A DNA stretch of 63,684 bases from Aureococcus anophagefferens (taxonomy: Eukaryota > Sar > Pelagophyceae > Pelagomonadales > Pelagomonadaceae): positions 2,022,618 to 2,086,301 of the forward strand of contig NW_008705561.1 of NCBI RefSeq assembly GCF_000186865.1, written 5' to 3'. A program made the position numbers and the translations under genes. Positions 44,107-46,965 of this stretch are shown here, one piece after another. The first letter of the stretch is position 1; each line of letters opens with the position of its first letter. Under the pieces are notes generated by a model that ran no database searches, was not told where the DNA came from, and saw only the letters and a program-made list of their open reading frames with translations.

Positions 44107-44173
44107 GCGCGCGCTTCGTCGGCCGCCGGGGAGTTTCGGGAACCCCGCGGCGGCGTCATATTTTCGCGCGCGC
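44107..44173 (-). promoter_or_regulatory. candidate SECIS element in the 3' UTR of the YHS gene
   Basis: Starting 2 nt after the stop of the YHS gene, the minus strand can fold as: GCGCGCG stem, internal loop AAAAT, then ATGA (44159-44156), a second stem GCCGCC-GC-GGGG pairing with CCCCGGCGGC, apical loop TTCCCGAAACT containing AAA, then CGAC supplying the opposing GA (44020-type sheared pairs at 44120-44119), then CGCGCGC closing the first stem. This is the order required of a eukaryotic SECIS: stem, ATGA/GA quartet, stem, loop with AA. The AA lies on the 3' side of the loop and a C/C mismatch follows the quartet, so the fit is imperfect. Confidence 0.4.
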
Positions 44174-44175
44174 TT

Positions 44176-44758
44176 CTAGGCGACGAGGTTCGTGTTGTAG
44201 CAGTGGGGCGCCCACTGGGATGTCGCCGCGATGTCGGGCCAGAACTTCTCGGCGAGCGCGTAGTCCGCGGCGCCGGCGAGCTGCATGACGGCCTACATTG
44301 TCATTGTTTCCCAGGCTGAAACCTAGATCATGGACGCTGTCGCTCGCCTTCGCGCCGGCGTTGAAGTACCAGTATGAGTCGTCTTCGCGGAGCTCGTAGC
44401 AGCCCGCGGACTCGGTGCAGCCCTTCCAGAGTCCGCCGTTCGTCGCGTTTTCGTTGCCGTGCGCCGCGACGGCCAGGGCTCAGTAGCCGCCGTATTTCGG
44501 TGCATATTTTGTTCGGTTCGCGCGGAACGCGTCCAGGTTCGCTTCGTTATCGAAAAAGAAGGTGTAGCCGCCGAGGGCGCTGTCGTTGAAGGCCGACGAG
44601 CCCATGGTCGGCGCGGCCTTGGGATGGCCTGACATCATGGTCGCGACGAAATCGACGCCGCCGAGCACGGGTCCTAGCGAAGGGTCGCCACACTCGTGGC
44701 TGGCCGCCGCCAGGCCGACCGCCAGGAGCTGCGTGGGCAGCCTCCGCCGCGTTCTCAT
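44176..44758 (-). CDS. YHS-domain protein, candidate selenoprotein (in-frame TGA)
   Basis: Exon 1 is 44758-44336 and exon 2 44292-44176, with an inferred 43-nt GT-AG intron, giving 179 residues if TGA at 44482-44480 is read through. The N-terminus RRRLPTQLLAVGLAAA is signal-like. GPVLGGVDFVA...GGYTFFFDNEANLDAF...KYAPKYGGY matches the YHS domain. In homologues the next residue is Cys (YGGYCA); here it is TGA followed by ALAVAAHGNENATNG, which continues the family pattern, and good coding runs on to YALAEKFWPDIAAT and NTNLVA before TAG. Cys-to-TGA replacement followed by conserved sequence is the hallmark of selenocysteine. A simple nonsense mutation is the alternative. It diverges from the EF-hand gene, 94 bp apart. 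Confidence 0.65.
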
Positions 44759-46184: not shown

Positions 46185-46411
46185 GAGCTCGCAGGGCAAA
46201 CATCGCCTTCAGGAGCACGTGCGAGCTCGCGGAGGCGCTCGCGGGCAGGCCTCTAAGGCATCGCTGGCCTCTTGGAAAAAAAACCTAAATCTACCTTAAC
46301 AGCCCCACACCTTCACCAACGCCGTCTTGTCGAACGACCCGGGAAACAGTGGGCGATCCGAGCAATTCTCGGTCCGTTGAGAATCCGTTAGACAGCACTA
46401 ATTCTATAACA

Positions 46412-46668
46412 TTTTTTTTTTTTTTTTTTTTTTTTTTTCGGATGAAATAATACCCATCTCTTGCGACCTTTCAGAAGGGTATTCCATGCATGCGTTCCAA
46501 GTGGGTCTATGTGTAGGGATGACCCACTCCTTGGGATGCCGATTATAATCCAAACAAAGTGTGGTCTTTTATCGTTTGGCAAAATAGATAATTCGTCTTC
46601 TTCGAACCATGTGGGAACTGTGAAATCTTTCATTAAGTCAGATGTACCTGGTCTCGTATTGAATTGGC
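46412..46668 (-). pseudogene. JmjC-domain fragment ending in a 27-nt poly(A)
   Basis: In one minus-strand frame, 46668-46439 encodes DFTVPTWFEEDELSILPN, then WIIIGIPRSGSSLHIDP and GTHAWNTLLKGRKRWVLFHP. This matches the first half of a JMJD6-like JmjC domain, including the iron-binding His-x-Asp (HID). It stops abruptly at ...FHP and runs into 27 consecutive A (T run at 46412-46438 on the + strand). The second iron His and the rest of the fold are absent. The fragment is AT-rich compared with its surroundings. It is joined at its 5' side to the truncated RelA-like copy. A retro-copied or captured fragment is the simplest reading. Confidence 0.7.
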
Positions 46669-46965
46669 CAGCGCGACGAGCGCCTCGACGGTCGCTCCCT
46701 CGGGGAGCGCGCACCGCGGCGGGTCCGCGGGCGAGAACTCATCCTGGAGCTCAGCGGTCTCCCGGAGCAGGTCATCCGCCACGCAGGCGGCCCACGCCGC
46801 TTCGTAGAACGCTTTGACCTCCCCCTCCGCACGGGAGATCTCCTCCTGGAGTTTGGTTCGATCGCAATTCTTGACGTCGCGGTCGCCTGCTGGCGTTCGC
46901 GGCACGGCCCGTTCCACGTTGCTGCAGATTATCTGCACCTGGTCGATGCTCGCGCTGGCGCCCAT
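46633..46965 (-). pseudogene. truncated copy of the RelA/SpoT-like gene
   Basis: From ATG 46965 the first ~100 residues (MGASASIDQVQIICSNVERA...) are almost identical to those of the gene at 214-1245. At about 46671, within GGCCAGCGCGACGAG, similarity stops and the frame ends 12 residues later at 46633. The nucleotidyltransferase core is missing, so it cannot be functional as such. Homology extends ~55 bp upstream of the ATG, so promoter-proximal DNA was copied too. The two copies are ~45.7 kb apart in the same orientation. Confidence 0.85.

Follow-up and report, generated by a model that had tools for sequence, protein, structure and literature searches.

Does the in-frame TGA codon within a YHS-type gene of this stretch end the protein, or is it read as selenocysteine (Sec)? 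The gene spans positions 44758-44176 on the minus strand of the window (the whole stretch of 63,684 bases that was analysed); the window lies on contig C1, the genome having a size of 49.05 Mb. The gene and the element that follows it are composed as listed here.

44336..44758, minus strand: exon 1, 141 codons, with a signal-peptide-like N-terminus, a YHS-like domain, TGA at codon 93 and the start of the C-terminal half
44480..44482, minus strand: in-frame TGA read as candidate Sec codon 93, from the translation and from comparison with the paralogues, the second candidate L019 and bacterial genes
44293..44335, minus strand: predicted GT...AG intron of 43 nt, phase 0, called from sequence only, with a poor coding score compared to its flanks
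44176..44292, minus strand: exon 2, 38 codons and the TAG stop (44178-44176), with a GC3 of 0.97 and a codon score of +0.51
44107..44173, minus strand: predicted SECIS element, with a helix I of 8 bp (44173-44166 paired with 44114-44107) and then an internal loop
44159-44156 (ATGA) and 44120-44119 (GA), minus strand: SECIS core, with helix II within a 33-nt hairpin

Exon 1 translates as MRTRRRLPTQLLAVGLAAASHECGDPSLGPVLGG...NRTKYAPKYGGY-TGA-ALAVAAHGNENATNGGLWKGCTESAGCYELREDDSYWYFNAGAKASDS, with the TGA as the sole interruption of the 141-codon frame, and exon 2 (44292-44176) encodes AVMQLAGAADYALAEKFWPDIAATSQWAPHCYNTNLVA and then TAG. Retranslation of the minus strand shows the coordinates and the translation of the earlier, sequence-only reading (KYAPKYGGY-TGA-ALAVAAHGNEN) to be exact. 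An alternative start is possible at an in-frame ATG upstream of the annotated M (in ...FLHTMVPPGGSVRPTMRTRRR). Elsewhere in the window, at 46388-46738 on the minus strand, there is a frame with IPRSGSSLHIDPLGTHAWNTLLKGRKRWVLFHP, a stretch that we take to be JmjC-like, running into an A-rich tract that codes for a run of Lys.

If the TGA were an ordinary stop, the gene would produce a truncated YHS protein of 92 residues, or it would be a decaying pseudogene with the downstream frame as a relic. We consider this improbable, in the first place because the sequence past the TGA looks coding, both by codon score and by GC3, as the sequence-only reading had proposed. With codon scores trained on two neighbouring plus-strand ORFs (1140 codons), the sense frame reaches a log-odds of +0.35 per codon in the part following the TGA and of +0.51 in exon 2. 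For these two parts, the remaining two sense frames lie between -1.0 and -1.3, and values of +0.11 and +0.25 for the best antisense frames correspond to the usual mirror effect. Exon 1 before the TGA reaches just +0.01, below the score of the part after it. The GC content at codon positions 1, 2 and 3 is 0.58/0.54/0.92 after the TGA and 0.63/0.50/0.97 in exon 2, and it is flat in the 3' region (0.64/0.67/0.66). Similarity is weaker evidence than codon usage for coding past the TGA, and the weak resemblance of this half to relatives speaks for an ordinary stop. Against a profile of the C-terminal halves of bacterial Sec-YHS proteins it scores 0.4 bits, the best of 1000 shuffles scoring 7.5 (the post-TGA half of L019 reaches 7.7 bits). 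A protein database search with the post-TGA part of the gene gave no match, and among the 14 paralogues the half beats shuffles for one only, L014 (2 of 500 shuffles as high).

These paralogues were found with exon 1 as query against the own genome, which gave 18 places: the gene itself, 14 stop-free YHS paralogues (L005-L018), the TGA-bearing L019, and L020 and L021, which are not YHS. At the column of the TGA, the TGA-free paralogues have Cys in 13 of 14 cases and Ser in the remaining one (L014, GGFS), so that the Cys presumed to be conserved at this position is indeed found there. The 14 stop-free genes form an expanded YHS-type family in a single eukaryotic genome, many of them with a Cys near the domain start, and L014 is the sole member with a C-terminal half that is closer to that of the window protein than shuffles are.

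Three orthologues among metagenome proteins (P0003-P0005, with identities of 96, 69 and 51% between them and the window protein) all end at YGGY, these being protein records in which the type of stop codon is not visible. It had been anticipated that relatives would have no sense codon at the TGA site, and this holds for all three. That metagenome gene calls end at YGGY would also suit an ordinary stop, but orthologues down to 51% identity keep the stop at the same residue, unlike what random decay would give.

A SECIS element is defined, in the available text of PMC11227280 and PMC3706390, as a 3' hairpin with a kink-turn core AUGA/GA between two stems, and a hairpin of this build is present at 44107..44173. 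It was found with a script that looks for the pattern [AG]TGA-N-hairpin-N-GA and then folds the hairpin; the strict setting (C after TGA, C before GA, energy -16) was chosen after known elements had been seen. A single element, ATGAC-GCCGCCGCGGGGTTCCCGAAACTCCCCGGCGGC-CGAC, lies downstream of the window gene. Its ATGA begins at 44159, after 16 nt of sequence 3' of the TAG stop, so that a SECIS-type hairpin, as demanded by the sequence-only reading, is present in the sequence past the stop. Folded with its flanks, the element consists of two helices around an internal loop that holds the ATGA and GA strands, with a minimum free energy of -40.0 kcal/mol (z -3.19), a value that none of 200 shuffles reaches. 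It is the sole match in a strict scan of both strands of the window and one of 7 matches in a loose scan of the same strands, and when the 300 nt downstream of the gene are shuffled, a strict element arises in 2 of 3000 cases. The presence of such a hairpin just past the later TAG argues against the TGA being an ordinary stop. The hairpin shows no clear AAR left unpaired in the 5' part of its apical loop or bulge, an AAA lying in the loop solely if this is opened further, and the Rfam SECIS_1 model gives no match on it.

Known selenoprotein families of the same genome can serve for comparison. Model searches for Rdx, GPx and SelM/Sep15 gave 16 loci, among which ten distinct genes have TGA at the Sec site: the Rdx genes L022-L025, the GPx genes L028, L030 and L034, and the SelM/Sep15 genes L036-L038. 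The TGA lies within the match in eight (L022, L023, L024, L028, L030, L034, L036 and L037) and in an upstream exon in L025 (IQYCGG-TGA-GYKK) and L038 (ISCNA-TGA-TLNRLPEV). In the same scan, each of the ten is followed by exactly one SECIS-type element; L031, a later exon of L034, shows the same element as L034. No such element was found at the five known-family loci without a visible TGA (L026, with the reading CFNC, L027, L029, L032 and L033), nor at any of the 14 TGA-free YHS paralogues. Over the 253,876 strand-bases of own-genome loci (overlapping loci included), all 14 strict rows fall in sense orientation to a gene with TGA. One of these rows, at position 1192 (plus strand) of L023, is an additional SECIS-like element that precedes the Rdx selenoprotein gene and may be part of another selenoprotein gene next to it.

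The SECIS-type hairpins of this genome, including that of the window gene, have the signature RTGAC...CGA in common. The AAR motif is called essential for SECIS in the available text of PMC3706390. Among the 12 elements (those of the ten known-family genes, the window gene and L019), no unpaired AAR is conserved in the 5' part of the apical loop; the predicted apical loops contain AA in one of the 12 (L022) and CC in seven. Some selenoprotein genes with a CC variant of the apical motif are known, and a high GC content of the genome makes chance occurrences of CC frequent. Since AAR is not conserved in the known elements of this genome, the window element is to be filed as the genome's own SECIS form and not as the AAR type. 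Rfam SECIS_1 misses the elements of L004, L019, L022-L025, L028, L030, L034 and L036-L038. It is suggested that the SECIS elements of this genome, those of GPx, SelM/Sep15 and Rdx included, are without a conserved apical AAR, and for this reason the selenoproteomes of such algae may be undercounted by searches based on Rfam or on AAR.

The arrangement of the window gene is not confined to it, as one of the YHS paralogues is built in the same manner.

1424-2216 of locus L019, own genome contig C14, plus strand: YHS paralogue with TGA at the same site and a SECIS hairpin of its own

L019 reads YAPRWGGF-TGA-GW, then a predicted intron, then GIATETGGDW. This frame fits the motif GGFC-SYGIATE of the paralogue L010 (GGFCSYGIATEYESDGFYW), which places the TGA exactly at the Cys. 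There is one downstream SECIS-type element, of the same kind as that of the window gene, and P0007 is a relative of the downstream exon (65% identical over 51% of the query). L019 is thus a second candidate YHS selenoprotein, and its repetition of the whole arrangement is a further argument against an ordinary stop in the window gene.

A TGA at a site that is Cys in 13 of 14 relatives, together with a downstream hairpin like those of known selenoprotein genes, points to a likely selenium-containing YHS protein. In our judgement, the gene very probably encodes a YHS-type selenoprotein of about 179 residues, likely secreted, in which TGA codon 93 would be read as Sec under the direction of the SECIS element. 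The Cys site, the hairpin and the ends of the orthologues all agree with Sec at residue 93 of a protein of this length, as the sequence-only reading had it. The genome has tRNA-Sec (73.9 bits, cut-off 47), SelD (266.4 bits, cut-off 125) and SepSecS (two exons over the cut-off). With the SelB/EFsec model, all matches in the genome are below the cut-off (best 189.4 versus 242.25), so that the Sec elongation factor was not identified there.

It is very improbable that the TGA is read as another residue, such as Cys or Trp, by general recoding, or that it is spliced out of the mRNA. The open frame would be accounted for in this way, but in the loci scanned the strict SECIS-type matches are confined to TGA-bearing genes, the site has a Cys codon in 13 of the 14 TGA-free YHS paralogues, the genome has a tRNA for Sec, and no plausible splice donor is seen by eye just before the TGA. 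Finally, an error of sequencing or assembly could have turned TGC or TGT into TGA, a single base making the difference to Cys, but this is extremely improbable in view of the stop at the same place in P0003 (96% identical to the window protein, with 6 member sequences) and in two more distant orthologues, and it would leave the SECIS unexplained.

If the TGA is indeed a Sec codon, ribosomes with Sec-tRNA would decode codon 93, the hairpin past the TAG would direct Sec to it, and TAG instead of TGA would end translation. The selenol would take the place of the thiol in the YGGYC motif of the family and might act as a redox nucleophile in an extracellular or endomembrane protein. The joined protein, with C put in for the TGA, scores 51.6 bits with NCBIfam NF041384, under the cut-off of 70, and 19.9 bits with Pfam YHS (PF04945), under the gathering cut-off of 30.3. 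The Cys/Sec directly after YGGY by which NF041384 is characterized is present, and the Sec site of the prokaryotic YHS selenoprotein falls in the same alignment column as the window TGA. Given scores below both cut-offs and the same Sec site, the protein is to be seen as a relative of the NF041384 family, not as a member by the curated cut-offs.

The Pfam YHS match covers residues 64-88, within which the window protein has no Cys, and the Sec at 93 lies past this core. Copper-sensing YHS/TRASH domains, as described in the available text of PMC4626032, use an Asp and three Cys as metal ligands; of these, D36 alone is kept in the window protein (by eye). The Sec lies past the Pfam core and is not among the ligands described in that text. 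In a good structure model of the bacterial relative L080, the corresponding residue is positioned just before a short helix (98-102). The place of the Sec past the Pfam core and before this helix, together with the general use of Sec, suggests a redox role, and the signal-peptide-like N-terminus (by eye) suggests a secreted or endomembrane protein. Most likely, the Sec would be a redox nucleophile, in peroxide or thiol/disulphide chemistry, rather than a classical YHS copper ligand. Least certain in the explanation are the redox role and the extracellular or endomembrane location.

In bacteria, Sec at this site is encountered repeatedly. The DNA pattern P-x-Y-G-G-Y/F-TGA-A, searched in prokaryotes with each species represented by a single genome, matched 55 loci, in 43 of which the sequence ahead of the TGA encodes the YHS stretch. 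The C-terminal half of the family follows in frame after the TGA in 42 of these 43 (for example AYAVSRGSTADIDPEAWSIVDGKLYLNLN), the exception being L067; 41 were found by a script motif and L078, which is cut by the locus end, by eye. By their titles, the loci belong mostly to Desulfobacterota-type, Nitrospirota and Rhodospirillaceae metagenome-assembled genomes, two being symbionts of Olavius worms, and some genomes have two Sec-YHS genes. For three bacterial Sec-YHS proteins taken as controls, NF041384 gives 145-172 bits. A prokaryotic 'YHS domain protein (OS)' is among the selenoproteins in the available text of PMC2398784, and a YHS selenoprotein is also listed in those of PMC9312934 and PMC13188914; the bacterial TGA loci agree with these published entries.

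In a tree of 31 domain rows, with 12 of the 41 bacterial ones, the bacterial Sec rows form one group (100/99) apart from the eukaryotic rows, and the window gene groups with its orthologues and, weakly (81/46), with L014. A single origin with the bacterial Sec rows is not rejected (p-AU 0.14-0.24), the value being 0.142 for all Sec forms, and neither is one for the eukaryotic ones (p-AU 0.212). It could be imagined that YHS proteins have turned into selenoproteins repeatedly, each time at the same Cys: independently in bacteria, and at least twice in this genome, where the window gene and L019 would stem from the expanded family of Cys/Ser paralogues. The host would decode them by a GC-rich SECIS form that is devoid of AAR throughout the selenoproteome. 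This is a tentative scenario, with somewhat less than an even chance of being right. A SECIS form without the apical AAR across the selenoproteome would explain why the Rfam model misses the elements.

In the full-text literature, no report of a YHS selenoprotein in eukaryotes was found, the matches covering prokaryotes or marine microbial reads. YHS is absent from the main text and abbreviation list of the algal selenoproteome survey PMC7539508, and from the searchable text of PMC5917014 on Aureococcus. As far as these searches of main texts go, a YHS selenoprotein therefore appears to be new for eukaryotes. The description of the protein as a novel selenoprotein, made before, can be retained for eukaryotes as far as searched, but not beyond them, as the prokaryotic YHS selenoprotein with the same Sec site was already listed. 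If true, the finding adds to eukaryotes a selenoprotein family otherwise listed for prokaryotes or marine microbial reads. Furthermore, two Sec copies beside 14 Cys/Ser paralogues would constitute a natural experiment on Sec versus Cys at one site.

Compared with known systems, the putative selenoprotein resembles the YHS/TRASH domains described in the available text of PMC4626032 in its YHS-like core and in the conserved Asp (D36 here, equated by eye), while it differs in not keeping the three ligand Cys and in having its Sec after the Pfam core. With the prokaryotic YHS (seleno)proteins of NF041384 it shares the YGGY-U motif, the column of the Sec, the short length and, for most of them, a hydrophobic N-terminus (by eye). 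It differs from them in scoring below the cut-off, in a gene with a predicted intron and a 3' SECIS, and in a position in the tree apart from the bacterial Sec rows. The Cys/Ser paralogues L005-L018 have the same domain, and all but one of the 14 carry Cys where the window gene has the putative Sec, but they are without TGA in the match and without the SECIS hairpin (0 of 14). The GPx, Rdx-type and SelM/Sep15 selenoprotein genes of the same genome belong to protein families other than YHS, yet they have in common with the window gene the TGA and a 3' hairpin with an ATGA/GA core and the signature RTGAC...CGA.
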